This document shows, in pieces, positions 8,596-32,900 of a stretch of DNA of 64,000 nucleotides. The position numbers and the translations under genes were made by a program. Position 1 is the stretch's first letter. The number at the start of each line of letters is the position of its first letter. The stretch is from an uncultured Pelagibacteraceae bacterium. Lineage in GTDB: Bacteria > Pseudomonadota > Alphaproteobacteria > Pelagibacterales > Pelagibacteraceae. The notes below the pieces were generated by a model that was given only the letters and a program-made list of their open reading frames with translations, was not told the DNA's origin and ran no database searches. The DNA lies in NCBI GenBank assembly GCA_902619595.1, contig CACNFE010000002.1:1-64000 (forward strand), given 5' to 3'.

Positions 8596-9201
8596 TTACA
8601 AAATACTTATTAATATAGCAATAACAACTAAAGCAAATGCTGAAACTCTATTTATCTTTTGTGGATTCGCTTTGATCCAATGTATTAATTTATTAGCGAG
8701 TACGGCATATCCCATCAATGATAAGAAATCTAAAAAAACATAAGTTGAAATTAAGATAATAAATTGAATTACATAATTACCTTGAAAATCAATAAATTGT
8801 GGAAAAATAAAAGGAAAAAACATCCAAGCTTTTGGGCTAGTGCCAGCAATAAAAAAGCCATCATTAAAAAAGGAAAAGATATTTTTTTTTTTTGAGGATT
8901 TTGAATTAAATTTATTTAAACTCGAATTGTATAAATCATATGCTAAGTAACATAAGTACATAATCCCAGCCCATTTTAAGATTATCAAAAATATTGAATA
9001 ATCAGAAAAAAACGAACCAATAAAAAAAATTACTAAAGTTGCTTGAATTATATTGGCAGTTATATCTCCCAAAGCAGTCCATATACAATTTTTTACCCCA
9101 TAATTTATTGAATTAGATATTATTACTATTCTAGGAGTACCTGGTGTTATAAATAAAAATAAAATAATTTGTAAAAAAAGGAAAAATTCGAGAGGTAGCA
9201 T
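8596..9201 (-). CDS. LysE/RhtB-family amino-acid exporter
   Basis: 'LFLFITPGTPRIVIISNSINYGVKNCIWTALGDI' typical N-terminus; about 6 TM segments. Confidence 0.85.
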   Translation of the reverse strand: MLPLEFFLFLQIILFLFITPGTPRIVIISNSINYGVKNCIWTALGDITANIIQATLVIFFIGSFFSDYSIFLIILKWAGIMYLCYLAYDLYNSSLNKFNSKSSKKKNIFSFFNDGFFIAGTSPKAWMFFPFIFPQFIDFQGNYVIQFIILISTYVFLDFLSLMGYAVLANKLIHWIKANPQKINRVSAFALVVIAILISIL

Positions 9202-9320
9202 TTGAGTGATAGTCCTAAAAAACCGGGAGCTAAAGATGGCTAGATAGGACTATCTTTTTCCAATATAACACATGTTGAAAGAAAAGCATCAATCATTTAT
9301 TTAAATTTAGTAATTTTTAT

Positions 9321-11512: not shown

Positions 11513-13588
11513 TTATTTTTTTTCTGTCTTTTTTTGGGGATTTTTTTTGATTAATTCTGTATTTTTTATATTTATTGCCATGCAAGTGATATCATCTCTT
11601 AATTTTTCCGCACCCCAATTTAATTTCTTTTCTATAGATTCAACTATAGCTTTTGGAGTTACTTCTGAAATATTATTTATAATATTCTGAACTCCCTCAC
11701 TTCCTAATTCCTCTCCATTCTTAAGATATCCTTCGGTAACTCCATCAGTGTAAACTACAAAAGTCTTATCTTTCATATTTATAGTGTTTGATTTGACCAT
11801 GGAGTCTGAAAAATATTTTACAATTCCGATTGGTGGCATTTCAGATTTTATATACTCATAATTTTTATTTTGATCGAAAGTTAAAATACTTTCATGACCA
11901 GCGTTAATAAAAACCATTTCACCAGTTTTAATATTTAATTTTCCAAAAACAGCAGTAACAAACATTCCTTTGAATTTAGCTTCAACTAATTCATTGTTTA
12001 CTCCAAAAACAACTTTTTCAATTGGATATTTGAGATTGGTAAGGGTTCTAAAGATTGAAGAAGCTTTTGCCATATACATTCCAGCTTTTATTCCTTTTCC
12101 AGACACATCTGCTAATGTAAAAAAATATTCTTCTGGTGTAGATCTTACAACATCAAAATAATCCCCCGAAACATCTCTTGCAGGTACATTTCTTGCAAAA
12201 ATAAAATTTTCAAATTTAGATATATCTGGAAATAAACTTTTTTGAACACCCGCAGCCAATTCTCTTTCTTTTAAAAGTTTAGCTTCTTTTTGTAAGTTTT
12301 CTAAGGCAAGTTTATTTTCCTCAATAAATCTAAAATATAATCCAGTTAAAAATGTTACAGTTACAATGAAAAGTGGGTAACTTATATCAATTAGTTGGGA
12401 TTTAAATTTATAAACAGAAAATCCAATAATTATAATAGCTAAAATATTTCCGAAAAAAATTGATAGACTGTACCTTGGTTTTATTTTTTGAGATAATATA
12501 AAAGTAACAAGAGCAACAATTATAGAAAACAATAACTCAAAAATATAGGTGTTTGGATTTCTAACTAAATAAGATTTATCTAAAATATTTTCAATAACGT
12601 TAGCGTGAACTTCTACTCCTGGAATAGTTATTCCTAAAGGTGTTTTTACTAAATCAAAAAGTCCTTGTGCAGATGCACCTATCAGCACATATTTATTCTG
12701 AAAAAATGATTTATCAAAGTTTCCCTCGTAAACATCACTAGCAGAAATATATTGCTTCTTTTGAGACTTTTTATATTTAATCCAAATTATTCCATTTGGA
12801 TCAGACTCAATTTTGTGAGGCCTTGCACTAATTCTATTTATTCCAACCTCGTTTAATTCAACATAAATATTTTTTTGTTTTTCGCCTACCCGGACCATTT
12901 CTAGTCCAATTGTTGGGTATAATTTTTTATTCAATTGAACAATAAGTGGCAAGGATCTAATGATGCCATCTAATTGATCTAAAAAAGATATTGAGCCTAA
13001 ACCTTTTACATTATTTTCTAATACTTCAAGTGATCCAATAGAAAAAGGATAGGAGTATGTGAATTCAAAAGGGTCTCCACCTTTTGACAAAAATCTAGCC
13101 TTAGCTTTTCTATCATAATTTGAATGTGATGGTACATTGCTTCCTAACACTGCAATAATAGATTTGGATTCTTTTAATTTTTCAGCAAAAAGATCATCTG
13201 GACTTTTCAAATTTTGAAGTTCGGCAACATCAGATGGTATTAGACCGTAAGATTTTATTATTTCTTCAGGTGATTGTTTATCTTTCTCTGTAAAAAATAT
13301 ATCAAAACCAATTGCCTTTGGATCTGATGTATTTAATTTATCTAATATTTTTGCAAAAACTGTCCTGTTCCAAGGAAACTGTCCAAACTTTCCAAGACTT
13401 TTTTCATCAATATCAATTATTACTACATTGCTATCTTTTTTTTTTGCAAATACTTTCTGATACAAATCAAAACTTAAGTATGAAACTGATTTTATAAATG
13501 GTGGATTAATAATCTTTAGTGAAATTAGTAGTAATAGTATTGCAAAAAAAATAAAATAATTTGTATTTTTTTGAAGATACGCTTTCAC
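11513..13588 (-). CDS. CHASE2-domain sensor with C-terminal SpoIIE/RsbU-type PP2C phosphatase
   Basis: N-terminal TM, CHASE2-like 'VVIIDIDEKSLGKFGQFPWNRTVFAKIL...IGFDIFFTE', three TMs, then 'ARDVSGDYFDVVRSTPEEYFFTLADVSGKGIKAGMYMA', 'INAGHE', 'YTDGVTEG'. Confidence 0.92.
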   Translation of the reverse strand: MKAYLQKNTNYFIFFAILLLLISLKIINPPFIKSVSYLSFDLYQKVFAKKKDSNVVIIDIDEKSLGKFGQFPWNRTVFAKILDKLNTSDPKAIGFDIFFTEKDKQSPEEIIKSYGLIPSDVAELQNLKSPDDLFAEKLKESKSIIAVLGSNVPSHSNYDRKAKARFLSKGGDPFEFTYSYPFSIGSLEVLENNVKGLGSISFLDQLDGIIRSLPLIVQLNKKLYPTIGLEMVRVGEKQKNIYVELNEVGINRISARPHKIESDPNGIIWIKYKKSQKKQYISASDVYEGNFDKSFFQNKYVLIGASAQGLFDLVKTPLGITIPGVEVHANVIENILDKSYLVRNPNTYIFELLFSIIVALVTFILSQKIKPRYSLSIFFGNILAIIIIGFSVYKFKSQLIDISYPLFIVTVTFLTGLYFRFIEENKLALENLQKEAKLLKERELAAGVQKSLFPDISKFENFIFARNVPARDVSGDYFDVVRSTPEEYFFTLADVSGKGIKAGMYMAKASSIFRTLTNLKYPIEKVVFGVNNELVEAKFKGMFVTAVFGKLNIKTGEMVFINAGHESILTFDQNKNYEYIKSEMPPIGIVKYFSDSMVKSNTINMKDKTFVVYTDGVTEGYLKNGEELGSEGVQNIINNISEVTPKAIVESIEKKLNWGAEKLRDDITCMAINIKNTELIKKNPQKKTEKK

Positions 13589-13648: not shown

Positions 13649-14902
13649 TTACTTCTTTTTTCTTCTTTTCTTCTTAGCTTTTCTCTTCTTGGCTGCTTTT
13701 TTCTTCTTAACTACTTTTTTCTTTTTAGCTATTTTCTTTTTCTTTTTAGGCTTCGGCTTAGCTTTTTTCTTTTTCTTTGGTTTTGCTTTTGCTTTTTTCT
13801 TAGGCTTAGCTTTTTTCTTAGCTTTTGGTTTTGCTTTTTTCTTAGCTTTTGGTTTAGATTTTGCTTTTGCTTTTTTCTTAGGTTTTGCTTTAGCTTTTTC
13901 TTTTTTCTTAGCTTTAGGTTTTGCTTTTTTCTTATCTGCTTTTTTAGCTTTTTTCTTTTCTCCTTTTTTAGCTTTTTTCTTTTTACCTTTTTTCTTATCT
14001 CCTTTTTTAGCCTTTTTCTTTTTACCTTTTTTATTTTCTGCTTTGGCTTTTTTCTTAGCTTTTTTCTTCTCTGCTCTTTCAGCTTTAATTTTTACTTTCT
14101 TCTCTTTATCTTTTTGAATGTTTTGCTTAATGATAGTTTTAATTTCTTCCTTTTCAAAACCTAATGACTTTAACTCTTTTCTTAATTCTTTTTTAATTGC
14201 TTTTCTTTGAACTTTCTTGTCATCTTTAGAAAGCTTCGCAACTCTCAAAGCTTTCATTTTTTTGTTAAATTTCTTTAATTGATTTTTTGTAATTTTTTTA
14301 GCTTGTCCTGGTGCTTTATTTTTTGTCATTGAGGTAATGCTATATGGATTGTTCAATAAAGTTTGACCAAATTTATTACCAACCAGGACTGCTCCAGGTC
14401 TCATTCCTAAAGTATTATTTTTTCCTGGACCTATTAATAAAGTATCTGTTTTTCCTCTTGAAACTATTGTTTGAAACTCAGTTCCTCTTGAACCTAATGT
14501 TCCCTCTGGAACTTCAACGGTTAAACTGTCGGGATTTTTTTTACTTATTAGTCCAGAAATAACTTTTAAACTTCCTTGTTTAACGCTTGCTACTATTTTT
14601 CCATCATTTGTCTCAGGATCAAACACAAACGTATCCATTACTACTTCTGAGTCTTCACCAATCGTAAAAGTGGATTGATCTAAAAGTAATATTTGAGTAC
14701 CAGCGCCAACTCCCGCATATATTGTTTCATTTAAATAAATTTTATCGCCTGCTTTTAATTCTCTAGTTTCGGTTTTAACTGTTCCTGAAATAGCTCCAAC
14801 AATTCCAACTAATTGTTTTTCTATAGTTAATTTTTCCTCAGCGTAAGCACTTAAGTTGAGTGCAAATATAATTGCTATAATCGACGATATTAGTTTTTTC
14901 AT
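13649..14902 (-). CDS. FecR-domain secreted protein with long Lys/Ala-rich C-terminal tail
   Basis: Signal peptide; 'VGIVGAISGTVKTETRELKAGDKIYLNETIYAGVGAGTQILLLDQSTFTIGEDSEVVMDTFVFDP...VKQGSLKVISG...VEVPEGTLGSRGTEF' (FecR); C-terminal half KKAKPKAKKK repeats. Confidence 0.88.
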   Translation of the reverse strand: MKKLISSIIAIIFALNLSAYAEEKLTIEKQLVGIVGAISGTVKTETRELKAGDKIYLNETIYAGVGAGTQILLLDQSTFTIGEDSEVVMDTFVFDPETNDGKIVASVKQGSLKVISGLISKKNPDSLTVEVPEGTLGSRGTEFQTIVSRGKTDTLLIGPGKNNTLGMRPGAVLVGNKFGQTLLNNPYSITSMTKNKAPGQAKKITKNQLKKFNKKMKALRVAKLSKDDKKVQRKAIKKELRKELKSLGFEKEEIKTIIKQNIQKDKEKKVKIKAERAEKKKAKKKAKAENKKGKKKKAKKGDKKKGKKKKAKKGEKKKAKKADKKKAKPKAKKKEKAKAKPKKKAKAKSKPKAKKKAKPKAKKKAKPKKKAKAKPKKKKKAKPKPKKKKKIAKKKKVVKKKKAAKKRKAKKKRRKKK

Positions 14903-17938: not shown

Positions 17939-18238
17939 ATGAGTTATAAAATTACAGAAGAGGGAAATATATCTACAGTTTTTCTTAATGGAGAAATTGA
18001 TATGGATGTAACTGAAAAAGCAAAAGAGGTAATTTTACCAATTGTAGAGTCTGGTAAAGAGGTTCACCTTAATCTCAAAGACGTTTCCTACATGGACTCT
18101 TCAGGAATATCAGTTCTCATTGAAAGTCATCAAAAAGCTTTAGAAAATAATACCAAAGTAGTTGTTAAAGAGGTTAGTAAATCTGTTTTAAAAGTAATAA
18201 TGATGGCTAAGTTGGAGCAAATACTAAACTTAGAATAA
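17939..18238 (+). CDS. Anti-sigma-factor antagonist (STAS domain)
   Basis: 'LNGEIDMDVTEKAKEVILPIVESGKEVHLNLKDVSYMDSSGISVLIE': canonical STAS with phosphoacceptor-like DSSG. Confidence 0.93.
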   Translation: MSYKITEEGNISTVFLNGEIDMDVTEKAKEVILPIVESGKEVHLNLKDVSYMDSSGISVLIESHQKALENNTKVVVKEVSKSVLKVIMMAKLEQILNLE

Positions 18239-18651
18239 TGGATTTGTCAGAGTCTAAAGATTTTCTAGTACACACTGCGAGTTTAAAAGAGGTTAGAGTT
18301 TTTTCTAGAGAAGTTTTTGATAAACTAAAGTTAGACAATGATCTTAAAGAGGAATTAGTTTTAGCGATTGCAGAAGCTGCACAGAATATAGTTAAACATG
18401 CATATAAAGGTGTTGAAAATACAACAGATCATATGCAAATAAAAATTTCTTTAAAGGAAAATAATTTAGAAATTGGATTTTTTGATAAAGGAAAACCTGT
18501 TGTTGCTGAAAATATTCAACACAGAAAATTAGATGATATAAAACCTGGTGGTTTAGGCACTTTTTTTATTAAACAAATCATGGATGATGCAGTTTTTAAA
18601 AAAGACCAACAACAATGGGTAAACCATTTAATTTTATCTAAAAAAATTTAA
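18238..18651 (+). CDS. Anti-sigma regulatory factor (HATPase_c, RsbW-like)
   Basis: 'KEELVLAIAEAAQNIVKHAYKG' (N box), 'IGFFDKGKPV', 'DDIKPGGLGTFFIKQIMDDAVF'. Confidence 0.92.
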   Translation: MDLSESKDFLVHTASLKEVRVFSREVFDKLKLDNDLKEELVLAIAEAAQNIVKHAYKGVENTTDHMQIKISLKENNLEIGFFDKGKPVVAENIQHRKLDDIKPGGLGTFFIKQIMDDAVFKKDQQQWVNHLILSKKI

Positions 18652-19892
18652 CCACCCATAATTGCACCAACATTGAATATTGGTGAATACATCGCAATCA
18701 TAAGCCCACCGATCATAATACCCATGAAAACAATCATTATTGGTTCAATTAAACTCGACATATTATTTACAGCTGTATCAAATTCAGCTTCATAATATCT
18801 TGCAACTGAATTGAACATTTCATCAAGTTGTCCGGTTTGCTCTCCAACCGATACTAATTGGCTGAAAGTTGGTGGAAATAATGGTTCTTTTAAAAATAAT
18901 TTTGTCAACGTCTCGCCTGAAAAAACACCTTTTTTGACATTCTCTAAAGCTTCAGTGACCACCACATTTTTACTAACAGATTTTGCAATTTCTATACTTT
19001 CTAATAAATTTACCCCAGCTGCACTCAAATTTCCCATAATCAATGAAATTTGCGCAATTAATGATTTTAGAATTAAATCTCCAAATACAGGTAATTTTAA
19101 AACTTGTTTGTGCCATTTATATTGTATTGCAGCATTTTTAGTAGTTAGATACTTAAATAAGAAATAACCTCCAACTAAACTTAAAAAGAGAATTTTTCCT
19201 CCGGTTCCTCTAAGAAAACCACTCATGCTCATAATTATTGCTGTAGGCTTAGGCAGGTCGAGGCCCATACCCTCGTACATTTCAGCAAATACTGGAACAA
19301 CTTTAATTAACATAAACGCACTTACAACCATTGCTGTAGTAAACATAATACCAGGATACATAAGAGCACTTTTAATTTTCTTTTTAATTTTTTCTTTTTT
19401 TTCTAAATCATCAACAATTTTGAGTAAAAAAACATCTAATTTACCACTGGCCTCACCTGCTTTTATCAAGTTAACATATACGTTATCAAAGTATTGAGGA
19501 TATTTTTCGAAACATTTTGATAATGTAACACCACCCTCTAAACTTTTTCTAATGTCTTCAATTACTTCTTTTATTGCAGGAGACTCTAATTGATCTCTTA
19601 ACATTGCGAGTGTTTGCAAAATAGGCAACCCAGCTTTTACCATGGTGGCAAACTGCTTTGAGAAAATTAAAATATCCTCCACTTTTATCTTTTTTTTCCC
19701 AAATAAAGAGAAACCTTTACCTTTGGCTTTTTCTTTTTTTTCGCCTTTTTTCTTATTAGTTTTGATTAAATTAGTAATAATTACTTTTTGCTCTTTAAGT
19801 TTAAAAGATGCCTCATCTTGATTGAGAGCCTCAATTTCTCCCTCAACGTACTTACCTGATGATATACCTTTATAAGTAAATACTTCCATCAC
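18648..19892 (-). CDS. pilC: Type IV pilus inner-membrane platform protein
   Basis: GspF repeats 'FSKQFATMVKAGLPILQTLAML...', 'LVSVGEQTGQLDEMF'. Confidence 0.93.
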   Translation of the reverse strand: MMEVFTYKGISSGKYVEGEIEALNQDEASFKLKEQKVIITNLIKTNKKKGEKKEKAKGKGFSLFGKKKIKVEDILIFSKQFATMVKAGLPILQTLAMLRDQLESPAIKEVIEDIRKSLEGGVTLSKCFEKYPQYFDNVYVNLIKAGEASGKLDVFLLKIVDDLEKKEKIKKKIKSALMYPGIMFTTAMVVSAFMLIKVVPVFAEMYEGMGLDLPKPTAIIMSMSGFLRGTGGKILFLSLVGGYFLFKYLTTKNAAIQYKWHKQVLKLPVFGDLILKSLIAQISLIMGNLSAAGVNLLESIEIAKSVSKNVVVTEALENVKKGVFSGETLTKLFLKEPLFPPTFSQLVSVGEQTGQLDEMFNSVARYYEAEFDTAVNNMSSLIEPIMIVFMGIMIGGLMIAMYSPIFNVGAIMGG

Positions 19893-21643
19893 TAGCTAGC
19901 TGATAAAACTCGCTCAAATTCCCTAAAGTTTAAGTCTCCATTGGCAATCATTCTTCTGCCCATATCTTGCATGGTTTGAAAACCTTCTTTGATTGCAATT
20001 TCTCTTAACTCTGGCGTTGTAGCTTGTCTTAGAATTGCTTCTTTGATTGGTTTTGACACTACCAATATTTCATAAATTCCTTGTCGTCCTTTATAACCAC
20101 TATTTTTACATTTTGCACAACCTTTGCCTTTAATTGCTTTTACTCTAGATGCTTTTTCTGGAGTGAAACCTAAGTCAGTTAAAACTTTTGGTGTAACATC
20201 TTCGTCTGGAACTCTACAATCTTTACAATTTTTTCTAGCTAATCTTTGCGCAAGTACCATTTGAGTTGCTGCACTGATTAGATAATCTGGTGTTCCCATA
20301 TTTTGTAATCGTGTGATAGTGCTTGGCGCATCGTTGGTATGAAGTGTGCTAAATACTAAGTGACCTGTTAATGCAGCCTTTAATCCTATATCAACCGTTT
20401 CTTTATCTCTCATCTCTCCTACCAGAATTATCTCTGGGTCTTGACGTAAAAAAGATCTCAAAGCAGAGGCAAACGATAAACCAATGTCATCTTTAATTTG
20501 TACTTGGCCAACACCATCTAATTCATATTCAACAGGATCTTCTGCAGTCAAAATATTAAGATGTGGTTTGCTTACTTCTTTTAAAATACTATAAAGAGTT
20601 GTTGATTTACCTGATCCAGTCGGTCCAGTTACTAATACAAGACCTTGGGTACTATGAATAGCTTTTCTTAAATTTTTAAGATCTTGATCTTCAAAATTTA
20701 ATTGTTCCAAAGTTATATCACCTGCGTCTTTGTTAAGAATACGCATTACAATTCTTTCGTTGTTTGCTGTTGGCAATATAGACAATCTTAAATCAACAAC
20801 TTTACCATCAATTTTAAAATTAATTGCGCCGTCTTGCGGTAATCTTCTCTCGGCGATGTCTAATTTACCCATGATTTTAAAACGTGTTACGACCGCACCA
20901 TAGTTATCATGTAAAAATTTTTTATATTCTTCTTGTTCTTGAAGCATTCCATCAAGTCTATATCTGACCCTTGATGAAAATCTGTATGGCTCAATATGAA
21001 TATCACTAACACCTAGTTTAATCGCATCCGCTACAACAGCGGTACTAAACTTTATTACCTCAGACTCGTTTTCTATTGCTTCGATTTCCTCTTCAGGTTT
21101 ATTTTCTAAAACTTCTCCAGCATCTCCAAGCTCTGAGTCAAAAGTTTTTACTTTTTCCTTATTTTCTTTTCTTATAGTTTCAATTTTAACATCACCACTT
21201 TCACTTTGTAACTTTTGAATAAACTCAGAAATCTGAGATACTTTAGCTGCATGAAGTTCAATATTTTTTTTTGTAATTGCTTTTAAATTTCTCATTAATC
21301 CAAGTTTTGAACTATCAGAAATCGCTATATGTAAATTTTTTCCCTCAACTTTAAAAGGTGCAACAAAATTCATATTTATGTAGTTTGATGGCAAAACAGA
21401 TTTAATATCATCTGTAATTTCAATCTTTGATAGATCTACAATATCTAGACTCTGCTCTTTAACTAAAACATCTAAAATTTTGTCCTCATCACAAAGTTTT
21501 AATTCAAAAACTGCATCGATTTGTGATTTGTTTTTTTCAGTGCTTACTTTTTTTATATTTGGTAAATCTTTTCCAGAAATAATATCGTTGTCAATTAAGA
21601 CGTTGATTAAATTTATTTCACTTTCTCTGCTTATTTTCAACAT
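19892..21643 (-). CDS. pilB: Type IV pilus assembly ATPase
   Basis: GspE: 'VLVTGPTGSGKSTTLYSIL', 'TAEDPVEYELDGVGQVQ', 'ILVGEMRDKETVDIGLKAALTGHLVFSTLHTNDA', tetracysteine CKDCR/CAKCK. Confidence 0.95.
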   Translation of the reverse strand: MLKISRESEINLINVLIDNDIISGKDLPNIKKVSTEKNKSQIDAVFELKLCDEDKILDVLVKEQSLDIVDLSKIEITDDIKSVLPSNYINMNFVAPFKVEGKNLHIAISDSSKLGLMRNLKAITKKNIELHAAKVSQISEFIQKLQSESGDVKIETIRKENKEKVKTFDSELGDAGEVLENKPEEEIEAIENESEVIKFSTAVVADAIKLGVSDIHIEPYRFSSRVRYRLDGMLQEQEEYKKFLHDNYGAVVTRFKIMGKLDIAERRLPQDGAINFKIDGKVVDLRLSILPTANNERIVMRILNKDAGDITLEQLNFEDQDLKNLRKAIHSTQGLVLVTGPTGSGKSTTLYSILKEVSKPHLNILTAEDPVEYELDGVGQVQIKDDIGLSFASALRSFLRQDPEIILVGEMRDKETVDIGLKAALTGHLVFSTLHTNDAPSTITRLQNMGTPDYLISAATQMVLAQRLARKNCKDCRVPDEDVTPKVLTDLGFTPEKASRVKAIKGKGCAKCKNSGYKGRQGIYEILVVSKPIKEAILRQATTPELREIAIKEGFQTMQDMGRRMIANGDLNFREFERVLSAS

Positions 21644-21644
21644 T

Positions 21645-23192
21645 TTATAAAACTCTTGGTGCTATAAATATTAATAGCTCATCTAAGTTATCACTTTTTG
21701 TTGTACCTTTAAACAGATTTCCTAAAATAGGTACATTTCCTATGCCCGGTAACTGAGCTTTTGTATCAAATACTTTATTTTTCTTAATTCCACCAATTAC
21801 AACGATGTCTCCATCAGCAACTAAAAGCTTAGATTTTATCTTCATTGTGTTAACACTTGGCTCGCCTCCTGTAGCTCTATTTACAGAGTCGTTGTTTACA
21901 CTAACATCCAATAATACATTTCCATCACCGATAATACTCGGGGTAACTGATAGTTCTAAAACAGCAGGTTTAAATTGTGTTTCTGAACCACCGTCACCTG
22001 TTGATTGGTATGGAATTTCCTCACCCTGAGTAATAGTTGCTTCCTGATTATCTATAGTAAAAACTTTTGGATTAGATATTGTTTTTCCTAAACCAAGAGA
22101 CTCTAAAGCTTGTATTTGAGCTTTTAAAATTGAGGTACCTGTCCTTTTAATTATACCGATACCGCTTGTTGCCCCAGCGGCAGCGGCCGTAAAATCTGTA
22201 ACTGATCCTCCTGCATCACTGATAGACCCTGTCTCCTGATCGAAAGTAGTTGATGTCAAAGCATCCCCACCAACAACACCACCAACAACTCTCTGATTTT
22301 TTACGTATGTGCCACCTAATCTTGTCCCTAAAGCTTTTTCAAATGTAGAGTCTGCTTCAACTATAAACGCCTCTATCAAAACCTGTTTAGTCCTTACATC
22401 AATTTCACCAATAATTTTATTTACAACATCTAAATCTTCACTTTTACCTCTAACAATAATAGATCGTGTTGTAATTTCCTCAGTTATTTGAATTGGTGAA
22501 AAACCAGCCTCGCCTGTTGAAGTAAATAATTCATTAATAGTAGTCTTAGCTTCTGCAGGTGATATATAATAAAGTCTAAAAATTTCTGAGACAATTGGTT
22601 CAACGGAATCTTCTAATTCTACTTTCTTTTTAACTGCTGCTGCCCTTGTTGATTTATATGTTTCTTGTGCAGTTAAAGTTGAGGGAGTGTGTACTCTTAT
22701 TAAATTACTTGAAACATCGATATCGGCTGCAAAATTTTTCATATCTAATAGAGCATTAAAGGCTTTATCCCATGGAACATTAATTAGTTCAGCCGTAATC
22801 GATCCTGCTACCTCATCACCTACTAAAACATTTATATCTCCTACCTTACCCATTAATTGCATTGCTTCTGCGTAATCTAAATTTTTAAATTTGAATGAAA
22901 CATTTTGCTTTAAAGTTTTAAATTCGTCAGGAATTAATAAATAATTTCTTTTTTGTTGAGATGATATTTTTTTTCGTTTTTGTAATGCTTTTGTATCTCC
23001 GATCACGGGTTTTGGTCCCATTTTTATAGTTTTATCAATTTCCATTTTTCCTGATTTTCTAATGTCGTCTTTAATCAGTGGTGTATTATGTTTAAATTTT
23101 TTATTAGTTTTTATGTTTGGTTTTGCACAAGCATTCAGTAAAAGTAATAATATTGAAATTACAGAAAATATTTTTAAAGAATTAATATTCAC
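21645..23192 (-). CDS. pilQ: Type IV pilus secretin (PilQ/MshL-like)
   Basis: Secretin C-terminus 'ISNPKVFTIDNQEATITQGEEIPYQS...IVVIGGIKKNKVFDTKAQLPGIGNVPILGNLFKGTTKSDNLDELLIFIAPRVL'; lipoprotein signal. Confidence 0.93.
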   Translation of the reverse strand: MNINSLKIFSVISILLLLLNACAKPNIKTNKKFKHNTPLIKDDIRKSGKMEIDKTIKMGPKPVIGDTKALQKRKKISSQQKRNYLLIPDEFKTLKQNVSFKFKNLDYAEAMQLMGKVGDINVLVGDEVAGSITAELINVPWDKAFNALLDMKNFAADIDVSSNLIRVHTPSTLTAQETYKSTRAAAVKKKVELEDSVEPIVSEIFRLYYISPAEAKTTINELFTSTGEAGFSPIQITEEITTRSIIVRGKSEDLDVVNKIIGEIDVRTKQVLIEAFIVEADSTFEKALGTRLGGTYVKNQRVVGGVVGGDALTSTTFDQETGSISDAGGSVTDFTAAAAGATSGIGIIKRTGTSILKAQIQALESLGLGKTISNPKVFTIDNQEATITQGEEIPYQSTGDGGSETQFKPAVLELSVTPSIIGDGNVLLDVSVNNDSVNRATGGEPSVNTMKIKSKLLVADGDIVVIGGIKKNKVFDTKAQLPGIGNVPILGNLFKGTTKSDNLDELLIFIAPRVL

Positions 23193-23631
23193 TTGTCTCC
23201 TTAATCTGGTTTTTAAAATTCATGATTAAATATTTTTCGTCGGTTTGAAAAATTGCTTCTTTGGTTGTCATATCTACTAGTTTGACACCATCATTTAGCT
23301 CCTCAAACATACCTACCGTAATTACTTCACCATCTTGATTTATAAGAGAAATAAAACTATCTGAATCTGATTTTATTATTCCAACTAACTTGTAAGTGTA
23401 TAAATCAATTCGCTTTTTTTCTGCTAAACTATTTCCATCTTCAGTTATAACTTTAACTCCACCTGAAAAAGATGAGTCTCCAACAAAAGGATCGTTTAAA
23501 GGTAACGGTTCCTCTTTATTTTGACTTGATGATTTGTCTTTATCATGAGTGTCAGCATAAATATTATTGCTAAATAATACTATTAGAGTTGTTAATAATA
23601 GTTTTACAAATATTTTTTTAAAAGAACTCAT
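23182..23631 (-). CDS. PilP-like pilus assembly protein
   Basis: 'LNDPFVGDSSF...RIDLYTYKLVGIIKSDSDSFISLINQDGEVITVGMFEEL'; position between pilQ and pilO. Confidence 0.75.
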   Translation of the reverse strand: MSSFKKIFVKLLLTTLIVLFSNNIYADTHDKDKSSSQNKEEPLPLNDPFVGDSSFSGGVKVITEDGNSLAEKKRIDLYTYKLVGIIKSDSDSFISLINQDGEVITVGMFEELNDGVKLVDMTTKEAIFQTDEKYLIMNFKNQIKETSEY

Positions 23632-24310
23632 CTGTTAGCCCCACTATTGTTAAAGTTCCACTTACTTTTATCGCTCCAGTTGAATCTCCTAACTCTACTT
23701 GTATCTTTTCTGACTCAAAATTCAACATCTTATTAGATAACGATAAAGCCCTCTTAAATTTAATGTATCCTAAAAAATTACCATTGATCTGAAATTTAAC
23801 GGGAATTGAGTAATATGCTATGTTTTTCATTTGGTCTTTTTTAGACACTGCTTTTTTCCTTTTCTTTTTCTTTTTCTTTTTCTTCTTACCTTTATTTAAA
23901 ATTTCCGACTTTGACACTTGCTGAGGTTTGCCTTTTTCTATTACTGAAATAACCAAACCATTTATAGTCGCAAACTCACTTAGGTTTTGATATAAACCCT
24001 CTACTTCTGCTTTTGAATGAAATAATGTTGAATAGTTCTCATACTTAGGTTTAATTTTTTTAATCTTTTGCTTTATTGATACAATATCTTTTTCAAATTT
24101 AGCAATCTCCTCTTGTTTGGTATTCATATCAGAAATTTGAGCCCTCTTTTGTTTTACAATTGGATTTAAAATTGCATAATAAATTATTAAAAAGATAATA
24201 ATTGAACCCAAACTTATACCAATCTTAATCAAAGTTTTTTTATCAGCAAAAGCTAAAATTTTTGCTTTCAAATCATCTATGTTTAAATTTTTTAATTCAT
24301 TCAAATCCAT
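23618..24310 (-). CDS. PilO-like pilus assembly protein with internal poly-Lys tract
   Basis: Single N-terminal TM, coiled coil, 'FHSKAEVEGLYQNLSEFATINGLVI'; KGKKKKKKKKKRKK insertion. Confidence 0.8.
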   Translation of the reverse strand: MDLNELKNLNIDDLKAKILAFADKKTLIKIGISLGSIIIFLIIYYAILNPIVKQKRAQISDMNTKQEEIAKFEKDIVSIKQKIKKIKPKYENYSTLFHSKAEVEGLYQNLSEFATINGLVISVIEKGKPQQVSKSEILNKGKKKKKKKKKRKKAVSKKDQMKNIAYYSIPVKFQINGNFLGYIKFKRALSLSNKMLNFESEKIQVELGDSTGAIKVSGTLTIVGLTDEFF

Positions 24311-24312
24311 AA

Positions 24313-26766
24313 TTATCCTTTAACTTTTACAAATACTTTAAATCCTTTCATTACTTGGTCTCCCGCTTGTACCCTTGGCATTTTCATTGATGATAGAGAT
24401 GCTTGTGTGATGTAACTTTTTGATTGTAAGTTTCTGATCAACTGTAAGATATCATTATCGCCTGCTGCAATTCCTGTAATAACTACCTGTCTCTTTCCAT
24501 CATAATCTACAGAGTCAAACTTAACTCTATTTGGAACGCTGCTCGCAATCTGTGCTAACACTCTGTAGCTCAAATCTTTATTAGATTTAAGACTATTGCT
24601 TAATTTAAGAGTAGTTGTCATTTTCTTTAATTCTTTTGAAAATTTCGCAACTTCACCTTGCTTAGCTAAATGCTCAGCTACTACAGTATCGTATACTTTT
24701 AATTTATTGTTATAGGAATAAATGTTCCAAAATGATAAAGCGAATAAGATTAAATATATGCCTGCAACCGCACCCACTACTCCTTTATAAGCGAAATCAG
24801 AGAATGCTTTCATTTTCTTTTGCTTAATCATTCCTTCCCTATTCGGAAGAAGATTTATATTTTTTACAGCTGTAACAAATTTGTAATATCCAAATACATC
24901 GAGTTTTCTAAAAGCAAGACCAACAACAGTCGAAAAATAGGATCTATTTTCTATAGTTATTTTATTTTCTAATTGTTGAGGTATTTTTAAACCATCAAAC
25001 GGGTCAAACAAATTAAAGCCAGTATTTACTAAACTTTTTCTAAAGCTAGATAGATAATCATCAACGTTTGGTAAATTGGAAACTACTTTTATATTTCTAA
25101 CCCTTTTTTCATATTTAGTTTCAAAATCCTGTACAGCTTGTTTTACCTGTGTCATAAAACGTCTAACTAGAGCATCTTTTTCCTCTTGATCTTGAGACTC
25201 TTTCAGAATTTTTCTATCCTGACCACGTAGGAAAATATCGGTAATTATTGGGTTATTATTATACAATATCATTACATAATTCTCGTCTAATCCAAATTCT
25301 AACATTGCAGTGAAATTTGTATCCTCTGTTTTATTTGAAATTTGGTTGATTTGATCAACAGCAGACTTTAATGCAAAACATTTAACATCAATAATTACAG
25401 GATTTAATCCACTGTTTTTAATTATTGATGTGTAATTGTTAATATCAGCTAATTTTGAAGCAACAAATAATATATCCATAGTATTTTCTTTTGAACTTCT
25501 GTTAATAACTTGATGAAAAATTGAATAATCGTCAAGGTTATCAGTTAATTGAATTAAGTTTTCCCATAATGAATTTGTATCTACTGCTTTTTTTAATTCT
25601 TCATCATTCATTAATGGAGCAGTAACAACTCTTATAATTGCGTTTGTAACTGGAATTGCAATTGCTGCATTTGGTGTTGATATTTTTGATTTTTGCAATG
25701 CTATGTTTAATTCTTCGCTTACCTTTTTTTCGTGATCAATAATTGCAGAGTCTTCAGGAAGGTCGATTGCATGAGTATAAAATCTATCTAATACCCATTG
25801 ATTTGCTTTGTTTGATGAAATTTGTGCAAGTCTAATTTCTTTATTAGTAATTTCAACACCAACTATTTCCTCACCTTGCGCAGTTTTTTTACCAAGCCGC
25901 GATTTTAAAAAATTATTAAATTTTTCTTTTACTTTATTTTTATCAAAATTTAATTTTGGAGAAGCTGAGTCTTTTTTTCCAAAAGAGGGGGTATTTAGCT
26001 TAATATTTTTTAATTTATTAAAAATGTTTTGAACTTTTGATCCCCCAGCATCAGTTTCTTCTTTTTGGTTTAAAGAAATATTATTTTGTTCTTGTTGTTT
26101 TATCTCGTTTATTTTTTGATTAATGAGCTCTTGAGTAGATATCTCTGGAGATTTTGGTTTTATTTCCTCATTGGGGCCTGGTTTAACCTCAGGATTTTCT
26201 AAATTTGGTTGTGATGAAACATTATCTGGTTTTTGTTGTTCTAATTGTTTTTGTTCTCTCTCTTTTTGCTTATGGACATCATCAAACCATTTCTCCAAAA
26301 TTGGTATTGCTTCCTCTAAATTTGGAGTACCTGATGAAGAAATCTTTTGTTTTCCATCAATATAAAGTCTCCCAACCCAATTCCTTGATTTTAATTCACC
26401 TTTATATTTATCTTGCCTCACATAGATATGTAATCTTCCGTCTTTTTTGTGAATTACTTGATGCTCTTTCTTTTCTTCTGAAGTTTCAGCTACAACATTG
26501 CTTTCATCAGGCTTGTCTTTTTCTGGACTTTCGTCTTTATTTTCATTTAAATTGCCCTCTGACTGAGTTGTTGCATCTGTTTCGGTCTTTATATCACTCT
26601 CAGGTTGTTTTTCTTCAGAAGGTGTATTGTTTTCTAGCTCAGAAATTTTGCTCTCTTTATTTATATCGGGATTTACCGAAGCATCATCAACTTTAGGTTG
26701 ATTATCGGTTCCTTGGTCATTCTTATCTATAATGACACCAAATTTTTCTTTCTCTTTATCGTCCAT
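24313..26766 (-). CDS. PilM-PilN fusion with acidic N-terminal extension
   Basis: PilM actin-like region ('EEIVGVEITNKEIRLAQISSNK...LMNDEELKKAVDTNSLWENLIQ'), then PilN hallmark 'INLLPNREGMIKQKKMKAF' plus TM. Probable start 26766 (MDDKEKEKF), not 26817. Confidence 0.82.
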   Translation of the reverse strand: MDDKEKEKFGVIIDKNDQGTDNQPKVDDASVNPDINKESKISELENNTPSEEKQPESDIKTETDATTQSEGNLNENKDESPEKDKPDESNVVAETSEEKKEHQVIHKKDGRLHIYVRQDKYKGELKSRNWVGRLYIDGKQKISSSGTPNLEEAIPILEKWFDDVHKQKEREQKQLEQQKPDNVSSQPNLENPEVKPGPNEEIKPKSPEISTQELINQKINEIKQQEQNNISLNQKEETDAGGSKVQNIFNKLKNIKLNTPSFGKKDSASPKLNFDKNKVKEKFNNFLKSRLGKKTAQGEEIVGVEITNKEIRLAQISSNKANQWVLDRFYTHAIDLPEDSAIIDHEKKVSEELNIALQKSKISTPNAAIAIPVTNAIIRVVTAPLMNDEELKKAVDTNSLWENLIQLTDNLDDYSIFHQVINRSSKENTMDILFVASKLADINNYTSIIKNSGLNPVIIDVKCFALKSAVDQINQISNKTEDTNFTAMLEFGLDENYVMILYNNNPIITDIFLRGQDRKILKESQDQEEKDALVRRFMTQVKQAVQDFETKYEKRVRNIKVVSNLPNVDDYLSSFRKSLVNTGFNLFDPFDGLKIPQQLENKITIENRSYFSTVVGLAFRKLDVFGYYKFVTAVKNINLLPNREGMIKQKKMKAFSDFAYKGVVGAVAGIYLILFALSFWNIYSYNNKLKVYDTVVAEHLAKQGEVAKFSKELKKMTTTLKLSNSLKSNKDLSYRVLAQIASSVPNRVKFDSVDYDGKRQVVITGIAAGDNDILQLIRNLQSKSYITQASLSSMKMPRVQAGDQVMKGFKVFVKVKG

Positions 26767-26786: not shown

Positions 26787-27101
26787 CTCTAACACAAACA
26801 TAGCTTATCTCTAACACAATTTTAAAAAATGTCTAACACAAAATACAACCTATGGTGACCATTTTAGGTCAAAATGTCTATAAGTGTTGATTTTATTGAC
26901 TTTTTTTAAATTCTTGAAAAAAATTATTTTCTTTTTAAAGAAATATTTATTTTTAATAACTCTAACACAAAATGGTAAAATTTGTTGTGTTAGAGTTAAT
27001 TATTATTAAATAAAAACCAAAATATCACAAAAATCAACACTTTTATTAAAATCCTTGTATATGCGATTCTTGTGTTAGAGATAAATTTTTTTGTGTTAGA
27101 G
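26787..27101. repeat. Array of seven 11-bp CTCTAACACAA motifs (four forward, three inverted)
   Basis: Forward: 26787-26797, 26809-26819, 26831-26841 (GTCTAACACAA), 26960-26970; reverse complement TTGTGTTAGAG: 26985-26995, 27070-27080, 27091-27101. Read directly. Confidence 0.95.
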
Positions 27102-27449: not shown

Positions 27450-27749
27450 TTATTCAACTAAAGATCTCCCAGTTATATCTGTTGTAAACGATTGATATAC
27501 CATTACTGTTAATGTCTCAATATTTTTAACAACTCTATTATAATCAAAAGACCAATCTACTTTAGTGCAATCTAATTCTTTATAATAATAAACTTGTGCT
27601 TTTTTAATTGAAGGACCAATTTCTTCTGAAAGAATATTTAACATATTTGTTTTCTTATCAATTGCAAAATTGTATTTACAAACATTTGCTGTTGTCCAAT
27701 ATAATACAACCGAAATTAATATTGCAATGAGCGACATAAATTTTGTCAT
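27450..27749 (-). CDS. Hypothetical small membrane-anchored protein
   Basis: 99 aa, N-terminal TM; 4-nt overlap with the upstream phosphatase gene. Confidence 0.6.
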   Translation of the reverse strand: MTKFMSLIAILISVVLYWTTANVCKYNFAIDKKTNMLNILSEEIGPSIKKAQVYYYKELDCTKVDWSFDYNRVVKNIETLTVMVYQSFTTDITGRSLVE

Positions 27750-29032
27750 TGTATACTATCGACTGTAACAATTGTTAAATCATCTTTTTGTATCATGCCT
27801 GCTTTCACTATATCCTCAATCATTAATTTTAATCGTTTATTATTTGGTGCGTGTTGATATTTTTTTATATATTTTTGAAAACCTTCAACTTCAAGCATAT
27901 CACCTGATGGACTTTTTATTTCGGTTATACCGTCAGTAAAAATATACATTGAACTGTCTGAAAAGTTTGTAGTTGTCTCTTTATATTTTATTTTAGAAGT
28001 TATACCTAGTGGTGGACCGGCTTCAGAAAAGTTTGAAAATTTTTGTTCTTTATCAATTACAAGTGGTGGTTCATGTCCAGCATTTGATAAAAGTAATTCT
28101 TTTTTATTACTATCATAAATTCCAACCAACATTGTAACAAACATTCCTCTTGCAGCTGTTTCACAAATTTCTTTGTTAAGTAAGTTTAAAAGATCTGATG
28201 TAGAAAAAATAGTTTTACTAAGGCAACGATAGAGACTAGATGCCTTCGACATAAGTAAAGATGATTTAATTCCTTTGCCTGAAACATCAGCAACTCCAAA
28301 ACCATACATTCCTTTTCCAATCTCAGAAAAGTTATAGAAGTCACCTGATACAACTTTTGCAGGGATATTTATTCCAGCTATTGGAAAATTTTCATCTTTA
28401 TTCTTAGATAATAATGTTTTTTGTATTTCCCCAACAATTTCTATTTCCTTTTGCATTCTATTTTTTTCAACTAGTTCTTTTGCCATTTTTGCATTACGAA
28501 TTGCTAAAGCAGCAGGTGCAGATAAAGTTTCAAGTAATTTTCTATCATTCTCCTCAAATAATTTTCCATTCGTTTTTTTATTAAGACAATGAATAACACC
28601 GATGCATTCATTCGCAGCAATTAATGGTGAACAAAGAACTGAATAAGTTGTAAAATTAGTTTTGTTATCTAAGTCAAAATAAAATTCAGCAATTTCTCTA
28701 ACATCTTTTCTTACATCTCCAACTCTAATACATTTTTTTTGAAGAACAGCCTTGCCCATTACGCCTTGCGTTAAAGGAATTTCATATTCATCAAGATATG
28801 ATTGATATTTTGATGCGATACATTGAAACACTTGTTTTTTTTCATCAATTAAAAAAATATTTGCTGCTTGAGCATTTATTCTTTTAATTATTACTTCTAA
28901 AGCTGTTTGTAGGGTTTCATTTAAATCTAAAGATGTTGCGAATTCCTGGTTCATTTGTGTAATAATCGCAAGATCCTCGTCCAAAGAGTTATCTTTCTTT
29001 ATTGGCTCAATTTTTTTTGTTTTAAAAAACAT
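27746..29032 (-). CDS. GAF-domain SpoIIE/RsbU-type PP2C phosphatase
   Basis: GAF-like N-terminus ('IKRINAQAANIFLIDEKKQVFQCIAS...GVMGKAVLQKKCIRVGDV'), then 'VVSGDFYNFSEIGKGMYGFGVADVSGKGIKSSLLMSKASS', 'LSNAGHEPP', 'FTDGITE'. Confidence 0.93.
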   Translation of the reverse strand: MFFKTKKIEPIKKDNSLDEDLAIITQMNQEFATSLDLNETLQTALEVIIKRINAQAANIFLIDEKKQVFQCIASKYQSYLDEYEIPLTQGVMGKAVLQKKCIRVGDVRKDVREIAEFYFDLDNKTNFTTYSVLCSPLIAANECIGVIHCLNKKTNGKLFEENDRKLLETLSAPAALAIRNAKMAKELVEKNRMQKEIEIVGEIQKTLLSKNKDENFPIAGINIPAKVVSGDFYNFSEIGKGMYGFGVADVSGKGIKSSLLMSKASSLYRCLSKTIFSTSDLLNLLNKEICETAARGMFVTMLVGIYDSNKKELLLSNAGHEPPLVIDKEQKFSNFSEAGPPLGITSKIKYKETTTNFSDSSMYIFTDGITEIKSPSGDMLEVEGFQKYIKKYQHAPNNKRLKLMIEDIVKAGMIQKDDLTIVTVDSIQ

Positions 29033-29988: not shown

Positions 29989-32900
29989 AAATTCTCTCGC
30001 CAAGAATTTCTGAAAGATCTAAATTGTTTTTCGCTGGCAAGTATTTGTACAAGAGTATCTTCTGCTTCTTCTGGTCCAGCTAAGTTTGCAAACATGCTAC
30101 CACCGTAAACAACAAGTTTGGATAAAATACCACTTCCTACTTCATAACAACTTCCTTGTGCAACACTAGGATCGATATGTGTAGAGTCTAATGAGCCACA
30201 CTCATCATCATACGCACAAACATATGCCGTTCCTAATTCACAAACTTGTTCAGCTGGTTCATAGATTGGAAAATAAACTTTACCTCTATAAACAGTAGGT
30301 GCTGCTGAAGTTTTTCTAAATTTATTGCCTGTAGTTGATTTAGGGTTACTATCTGGTTCACCTAAATGATATTTCCATGCATCATCATTAGTTCCAACAC
30401 TGCAGGTCGGATAGTTTTCTCCTGTTGTATCAACACAGTCAGAACTTTTATCTATTTTTGGAGTATTTGAACTATTAAATGCTGTCGCTGAATTAAGAAT
30501 AAAGTCTGTACTTCCACTTATAAGTTTAGGATTATTTCTTGAAACAAAGTTTGGAAAATCACGATCTCTTATCCCATAAACTATATTATCCATTAAGCTT
30601 TTTCCATCTTCACCTACTGTTTCAGATATTCTATTAAAGTTCCCTGTTCCCCCAAATAACCAGAGATTTCCGGAGTCTCCTCCAATTGCTGCATCCATTT
30701 CAAAAAAACTAAACCTCTTATTTATATTGTCTGCTTGCAAGTTCATAAGAAATTGCTGCTCATATAGAGTACCATCTGAGGTTAAGTTAATTTTAATTAC
30801 TTTTCCCTCTAAATCATTAATGTAAACCATTGCTCCTCGCCAATCAGCCTGTGGTACATTATCTGCCGTTATGACTATAGGTGTAGCTGGAACTGAATTA
30901 ACTATAGGACTTGCATGTTCATACTCTCCCGTAATTCCTATTTTATACCCTTTCTTTTCACTGTCTAATATCCTCATAAATCCGTCATTTTCAGTTGATC
31001 CAAATAATCTTCCAGCTTTATGTCCAAGCTCTGAATTGTCCTCAAGCGGACCGGCTTCTAAATCAACGATAAAGACACCAGAACCTACACATTTAGTTCC
31101 AGATCCCATTCCTCCACCCATAACTGCAACGTATCTATCATCCTTATGATCTAAGCTTCCACTGGTAGATGGCATTCTAAAAATTCTTGGTGTGGACCAA
31201 GTCTCACCTAATCCACTATAATCGAACTCTATATTATTTATTCCTTGGCCATCGCAAGTCGTCTCTATTTTAATTTTATCAGATTGCCCTGCAATACCTT
31301 GGTCAATAGTGAATTTGTTCGTAGCACCGAAATTTATTGTCAATATAGCGCCGTCATAAGTTGCTGTAACATCATTATCAGATATCTCTATCCAATCGTC
31401 GCTAACTAATTCAGAAATTGACAGTACACCATCCTTTACCGTTCCATTACTTACTGCGCTGTCTGGTAATGTTATATCAAATGTAAAAACATTATCTTTG
31501 AAACATGTTGTTGCTCCACTAGCGTAGGATGTATTTACAAAGCCACCTCCTGCATAATCACTATTACCCTGACATGTATCTTTAGCATCCCTATTAGTAA
31601 AATAATCTGCCTCAAAGTCATCTGTAGTGTCGGCTGGAGTACCGTTATCATTTGTGTAAGTACCTAAAGCTACATCTCTCGTCTCAGCTTCCTCATAGAT
31701 ATTAGCTGCGTGAACCCCCTCAAAAGATTCTTCTAATGAAAGAGTCGCTCTTTGATATGGAAGTCTTGTCATTTTACCATTATGATCTACTCTTATAACC
31801 TCTTTATTATAAGAGTCGTTATATATAGAAAACATATGCAGAGGTCCTGTCCCTGTTTCATATGTACCATCATCCTTTTCTGTTCCAGCTGTTACAGTTG
31901 GTACAGTTATATCCAGTACTGAAAATCCTGCTCCACCACGACCATAAGGAATGAATAATAAAGTCCGCCAGGATTTTCCTGTTTCATATTCTGTCCCGCC
32001 TGGATTTAACCCCTTGATAAACACATCATGAACAACAGGTGATCCATCAACAGCAAATATAGGATTAGTACCTCCAGCTTTATTTCCTCCACCAAATTTT
32101 CCATCCATATTTTTGTTCACCAAGAGCGGGAGCTGGGCTGCAATCAATGGAGGTACAAATGCCCATTCCTCATCTCCAGTTTTCGCATTAAATGCGTGCA
32201 ACGTTCCCCCATTTGAACCTGCGTAAACAATTGTTGTTCTATCTTTGAGAGATGTTTGAAAAGCTCCATAACCTTTAGTTGATCTCCAGTATTTTTCTTG
32301 GTTGTTGCCAAAAAAGTTTGTACTTGCATTAGGTGGACCAACTTCGATTAGTTGAGAATGATAAATATCACCTAAAATCCAATCTCTATCCTCAGTAATA
32401 TTACACGCTCCACTTCCTGAACTTCCATCGTAATCAAAGTAATCGACACCTCTAACAAAATTTATTAATCCTTTTACATCATCCTCAATTCCATCTTCCA
32501 CACCTGGTGTATTTTTAATACCACAAGTTGATTGAGAATTATGATAATCTCTTACTACGTTACCGGTTGCCTCAAATAATTCTTGAATTGCAGCTGCATT
32601 ATTTGTATTCCAGTTATTCCATCCTCCGCTTCCAGTGTAGCCTGCGCTTCCATATTGATCAGTATCAATTGCAGTCCAGATTTTTCTATTCACAGATCCT
32701 TTAGAAGCTTTAACAAGTTCAGCTCCAGCATCCCAGTTACCAGCTGCCTTACCCTCATCGGTATCCAAGTCATCGTTAATGACATTATTATCAATACTAT
32801 ACCTATATAAGTGCCCCTTCCATTCAGTGTTTGACCTATAATTAAATTGCGCTTGATAAATAGATCCACCTTCTTCAAGAGTTGCTGTTATTGATGGAGC

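Follow-up and report, generated by a model that had tools for sequence, protein, structure and literature searches.

Upstream of the pilMNOPQ-like operon of an uncultured Pelagibacteraceae bacterium, in the 64,000-nt stretch of DNA analyzed here (the window), lies an array of short repeated sites, which raises the question of which protein recognizes it and to what effect. An earlier note, made from the sequence alone, had postulated a dedicated regulator. We propose that this regulator is most likely the product of the operon's own first gene, pilMN, and we put the probability that the array serves as operator for the pilMNOPQ-BC operon, with PilMN as cognate binder in an autoregulatory arrangement, at roughly 0.6.

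A search of the window sequence found seven copies of TCTAACACAA at 26787-27101, in the interval that separates a small ORF (27450-27749) from the pilMN ATG (26766, minus strand; Table 1). The base preceding this 10-mer is C in six copies and G in one; six copies are extended to the full CTCTAACACAA, and the copy at 26831 reads GTCTAACACAA, so that the invariant unit is the 10-mer rather than the 11-mer that the earlier note had counted seven times, at positions that otherwise stand. Its description of the geometry was borne out as well, namely the 22/22-bp spacing of the three forward copies, the central dyad, and the 21 bp separating the two distal inverted copies, as was its claim that the window holds no further copy, the nearest being CTCTAACAAAA at 32450, with one mismatch. 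A mechanically listed ORF start at 26817 would run into the array, and orthologues start at the equivalent of 26766.

Table 1. Features of the pilus operon and its upstream array, in window coordinates.
Feature	Position	Strand	Basis or remark
pilC-like platform protein	18648..19892	-	sequence
pilB-like assembly ATPase	19892..21643	-	sequence
pilQ-like secretin	21645..23192	-	position, sequence
pilP-like	23182..23631	-	position, conservation
pilO	23618..24310	-	Pfam PilO
pilMN fusion gene, 817 aa	24313..26766	-	Pfam PilM_2 1.4e-20, PilN 1.9e-9
Integrase-type arm-binding domain, ~aa 102-164 of PilMN	26275..26463	-	63% identity to tyrosine integrase N-terminus; invariant core; fold
Array site, proximal cluster, closest to pilMN start	26787..26797	+	exact CTCTAACACAA
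Array site, proximal cluster	26809..26819	+	exact CTCTAACACAA
Array site, proximal cluster	26831..26841	+	GTCTAACACAA; contains predicted transcription start
Predicted -10 TTGTAT	26843..26848	-	abuts first proximal site
Predicted -35 TTGACC	26867..26872	-	best of all offsets, 67 unique arrays
Second IHF-like block, between dyad and proximal cluster	26886..26906	-	AAAAAAGTCAATAAAATCAAC, inverted copy
Array site, half of central dyad	26960..26970	+	exact CTCTAACACAA
Array site, second half of central dyad	26985..26995	-	exact CTCTAACACAA
IHF-like block, midway between distal pair and dyad	27019..27045	+	A-tract plus AAAATCAACA; core AAATCAA at 27031
Array site, distal pair	27070..27080	-	exact CTCTAACACAA
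Array site, distal pair	27091..27101	-	exact CTCTAACACAA

The genome-wide search that the earlier note had called for shows that the motif is specific to this locus rather than scattered, with seven of the nine exact 10-mers in the 1.0-Mb genome falling in the array. The two others both sit in long ORFs and, given that a reversed control pattern occurs three times genome-wide, are at chance level; with just these two strays, both within ORFs, a genome-wide regulon was ruled out. An RNA family or hairpin RNA was likewise discarded, since the array has no Rfam match and the dyad amounts to two sites in opposite orientation.

The array is conserved well beyond this genome. The spaced pair TCTAACACAA-N10-14-TCTAACACAA was found in 34 of 297 genomes of the family, covering 6 genera, and in 67 of 399 genomes of the genus, while its reversed pattern was absent (0) from the control rows listed for both of these large samples, which rules out a chance origin. 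Each array examined sits immediately upstream of pilMN. The usual layout in the window's genus is a distal pair (21 bp), then 85-86 bp, a central dyad (24-25 bp), ~127 bp, and a proximal triple spaced by 21-23 bp close to the start codon; in other genera, the same site occurs in different layouts. The number of sites is mostly 7 or 8 (78 arrays), and one locus (L223, in genome G437) carries ~14 sites upstream of pilMN, as if its array had been duplicated. Among 488 unique site instances, which were gathered at ≤1 mismatch so that conservation is slightly overstated, the 10-mer hardly varies, and the spacers of tandem sites are only ~50% identical. The sites are in helical register (phasing resultant 0.79-0.85 at 10.5-10.75 bp). 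Conservation across arrays thus supports the helical phasing and the switch of orientation to which the earlier note drew attention, as well as its suggestion of cooperative binding by a dedicated protein with looping, the part that it missed being the likely binder next door. A SAR11 pilMN gene with its array is also present on a contig labelled Gammaproteobacteria NAT271 (L156), a bin that is probably mislabelled.

The operon is assigned to a type IV pilus on the grounds that PilM_2, PilN and PilO score above the Pfam cut-offs and that the genes follow the pilMNOPQ order. PilM and PilN are fused in one protein (24313-26766), a fusion shared by SAR11 relatives that have no array. The predicted model of PilMN runs from a disordered linker through an arm-binding-like domain, a second linker, PilM and a transmembrane helix (~aa 662-682) to PilN, the linkers around the domain being long and of low confidence (pLDDT about 25-40). 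PilMN proteins encoded next to an array all carry such an N-terminal extension, of roughly 130-280 residues, in which a ~62-residue block, VIHKKDGRLHIYVRQDKYKGELKSKNWVGRLYIDGKQKISSSGTPNLEEAIPILEKWFDDV, is nearly invariant between variable, low-confidence linkers. In the window's PilMN, 39 of the 62 residues of this block (63%) are identical to the N-terminus of a tyrosine integrase, a homology that classes the extra domain with the arm-type DNA-binding domains of integrases. Tyrosine recombinases of mobile elements characteristically carry such a domain at the N-terminus, where it recognizes accessory arm sites (PMC8138268). AlphaFold (AF2) predicts strands plus a helix (pLDDT 79), and the arm-binding domains of integrases 3rmp, 3jtz and 3ju0 span the whole domain at Z 5.3-5.7 and ≤20% identity, scores that unrelated folds also reach. 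Foldseek with the predicted domain gave nothing significant, sequence searches of Pfam and PDB using just the domain gave nothing meaningful, and a PHROGs search returned just two weak families of unknown function. PilMN itself has no catalytic or core-binding recombinase domain, its Pfam matches being PilM_2 and PilN only, and in the G000 genome the domain is encoded once, in PilMN.

Outside PilMN, the domain was found in only three other proteins, each of 418 aa and 68-87% identical to one another, of which the one tested matches Phage_integrase (PF00589) above the Pfam cut-off. A tRNA-Leu 5′ fragment flanks their genes on one side and an intact tRNA-Leu(CAA) gene on the other, and these tRNA-Leu(CAA)-linked integrases (L205, L206, L202) may belong to undescribed small integrative elements. 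Upstream of the int genes we found tandem TCTTACACAA/TCTAACATCA sites at an 11-bp pitch together with an inverted TTGTGTTA. In the 125 bp upstream of the three genes, 3 sites lie within ≤1 mismatch of the pil motif, versus 0.10 in shuffles, and 9 within ≤2 mismatches, versus 0.98 expected; a single base separates the integrase sites (TCTTACAC) from the pil sites (TCTAACAC). In two unrelated gene settings, then, the domain is accompanied by this type of site. In some genera, the domain begins within ~ten residues of the PilMN start codon, as it does in the integrases, which suggests that the 5′ end of an int gene was captured along with its upstream arm sites. A phage source of the domain was rejected, as neither the integrase nor the domain has relatives in the phage collection or the viral contigs that were searched.

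In the family and genus samples, 97 of 97 SAR11-family genomes with the array also encode a domain-bearing PilMN. Conversely, the array was detected in 34 of 36 (family sample) and 67 of 74 (genus sample) genomes with the domain, and never where the domain is missing. The genomes that the array pattern missed are accounted for by integrase-only cases (G257, G429), imperfect arrays (G340, G437, G456), contig ends (G551, G605) and one spurious match (G496); G551 was rejected as a domain gene lacking an array, its contig beginning at the start codon. Every domain-bearing pilMN with upstream DNA available, including those with imperfect arrays, thus has an array. Among the 67 PilM-positive genomes of the family, none of the 32 that lack the domain has an array (0/32). 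In SAR11 relatives, operons whose PilMN has no N-terminal domain (L019-L025, L207-L216) keep the pilO-pilP-pilQ order and, within the genus, a core that is 65-71% identical; the array is never present there, and where it was read the region upstream is a short divergent intergenic region shared with pilT. The motif is hence found upstream of pilM orthologues only where PilMN carries the domain, so that the criterion of the earlier note, its presence there in close relatives, needs refining.

The Fisher values for domain against array, 1e-42 and 1e-68, ignore relatedness, and we therefore built a tree of the PilMN core, from which one locus was excluded (L209, whose contig ends at the region of the PilMN N-terminus). 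Grouping of the domain-bearing proteins into a single clade is rejected (p-AU 1.5e-64), and the tree contains two state changes, both common to domain and array, which makes only two independent events. The joint retention of domain and array across PilMN cores sharing ~48-50% is a stronger point than these two changes.

The spacers of the array hold a further conserved element. A block AAAAAA.TCAATAAAATCAACA, midway between distal pair and dyad, occurs in 54 of 61 unique arrays (2.8 expected), nearly always at a fixed position. Compared with an IHF consensus of WATCAA-N4-TTR with an upstream A-tract, the full consensus is present in 1 of 61 arrays and the A-tract with the AAATCAA core in 54, the 3′ TTR missing in nearly all; given this partial match, the block is best called a putative IHF-like bend site. 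It is commoner genome-wide than its reversed control, and genes for IhfA-, IhfB- and HU-like proteins are present, all under the NCBI equivalog cut-offs. In the lambda system, it is through IHF-induced bending that arm sites meet core sites (PMC4880445). The best sigma-70 fit over 67 unique arrays places a predicted -10 right against the first proximal site, which would consequently cover the transcription start; this -10 region reads TATAAT in 16 of 66 unique arrays, the TTGTAT of the window being weak.

In the model that we favor, the arm-type DNA-binding domain would have passed from the N-terminus of a tyrosine integrase to an ancestral SAR11 PilMN, probably along with the arm sites lying just upstream of such int genes, and seven or eight such sites would have become phased helically around IHF-like bend sites and the promoter. 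The cytoplasmic arm domains of membrane-anchored PilMN would bind these sites cooperatively, and IHF would fold the DNA to bring the distal, central and proximal sites into contact. Lying over the predicted transcription start, the proximal sites would repress the operon or tune its expression, depending on whether PilMN is free or assembled. The same contact could also keep the locus at the membrane machine. Judging by the sequence comparisons, PilMN very probably binds the array, and autoregulation is the somewhat favored main consequence of this binding. More tentatively, the pilus platform protein may use a domesticated integrase arm domain to grip its own operon, forming an IHF-bent complex similar to an intasome, with the state of assembly being read at the promoter or the locus being held at the machine. 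A point against the model is that pilMNOPQ relatives work without domain or array, so that this control is not essential to piliation.

The contact between PilMN and the array might instead be mainly mechanical, with a membrane-bound PilM ring keeping the locus at the pilus machine, either to have the operon expressed beside the site of assembly or to anchor the chromosome, and not to repress transcription. The membrane anchor of PilMN and the long, low-confidence linkers around its domain would suit such tethering, a single array per genome with 7-8 phased sites is closer to a small centromere than to a regulon, and PilM belongs to an actin-like fold family (Pfam PilM_2). However, the sites close on the predicted promoter and start codon, closer still in g7 genomes, as those of an operator would, and we regard a mainly mechanical role as unlikely. 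A still less probable alternative is that a separate regulator binds the array and the PilMN domain serves another role. Partner-switching regulators (GAF-SpoIIE, HATPase_c_2 and CHASE2-SpoIIE) are indeed encoded in the same cluster, but at many arrays (L028-L031, L034) no neighbouring GAF-SpoIIE gene was found, whereas the domain is present in every array genome and the integrases with the same domain have near-identical sites. Finally, that the array is what remains of the attP or arm region of an integrated element, now functionless and hitchhiking with the captured domain, would fit the integrase-like arm sites, the IHF-like blocks and their joint occurrence with the domain, but is highly improbable, as the near-invariance of sites and domain, set against the divergence of the spacers and of the remaining N-terminus, requires continued selection, and neither an integrase gene nor a tRNA att site adjoins the array.

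The proposed arrangement has parallels in several known systems. The array and PilMN resemble a lambda-type attP and its integrase in the small N-terminal domain, here putatively of the type with three strands plus a helix (PMC4880445, PMC8138268), in the short repeated arm sites on both sides of putative bend sites, with IHF-like sites between, and in the position of these sites beside the gene of their likely binder. They differ in that the domain is carried by a pilus platform protein without catalytic or core-binding domain, that the array has no core site and no int gene or tRNA att site beside it, that its sites are 21-22 bp apart instead of 11 bp, and that the likely outcome is regulation or tethering instead of recombination.

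CadC and ToxR are membrane-bound one-component regulators, dedicated sensors that use a winged helix. PilMN would likewise be a membrane-anchored protein whose cytoplasmic DNA-binding domain acts on a nearby promoter, but it is an expected structural subunit of the pilus, and its domain is of the integrase type. In the ParR-parC-ParM system, iterated ~11-bp sites surround the promoter from which an operon with a gene for an actin-fold protein is transcribed, and the binder can autoregulate. Iterated sites around the promoter of an operon with an actin-fold protein recur here; in contrast, PilMN unites binding and actin-like domains in one membrane protein, and its binding domain is not a ribbon-helix-helix.

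Arm-binding domains, arm sites, IHF and autoregulated operons are each already known. In the open-access literature that we searched, we found neither a report of a PilM DNA-binding fusion nor the combination of these elements on a type IV pilus platform protein. SAR11 bacteria are among the most abundant in the ocean and have few regulators; a plausible binder can now be named for one deeply conserved regulatory array, and a concrete protein, sites and promoter are available for testing how the SAR11 pilus is controlled. A pilus machine has apparently domesticated the DNA-binding module of an integrase together with its cognate sites. If membrane-anchored PilMN binds its own operon, surface assembly and transcription would be coupled without a separate sensor, a type of link from surface machine to chromosome that would be new.

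Other features of the window deserve mention. The CHASE2-SpoIIE, HATPase_c_2 and GAF-SpoIIE genes of the pilus cluster (11513-13588, 18238-18651 and 27746-29032) are likely a partner-switching signalling set. The gene at 13649-14902 encodes a protein with a FecR domain and a very long C-terminal tail rich in Lys and Ala, and an Rfam match to the rhtB sRNA (9190-9272) lies just upstream of a LysE/RhtB-type gene (8596-9201).
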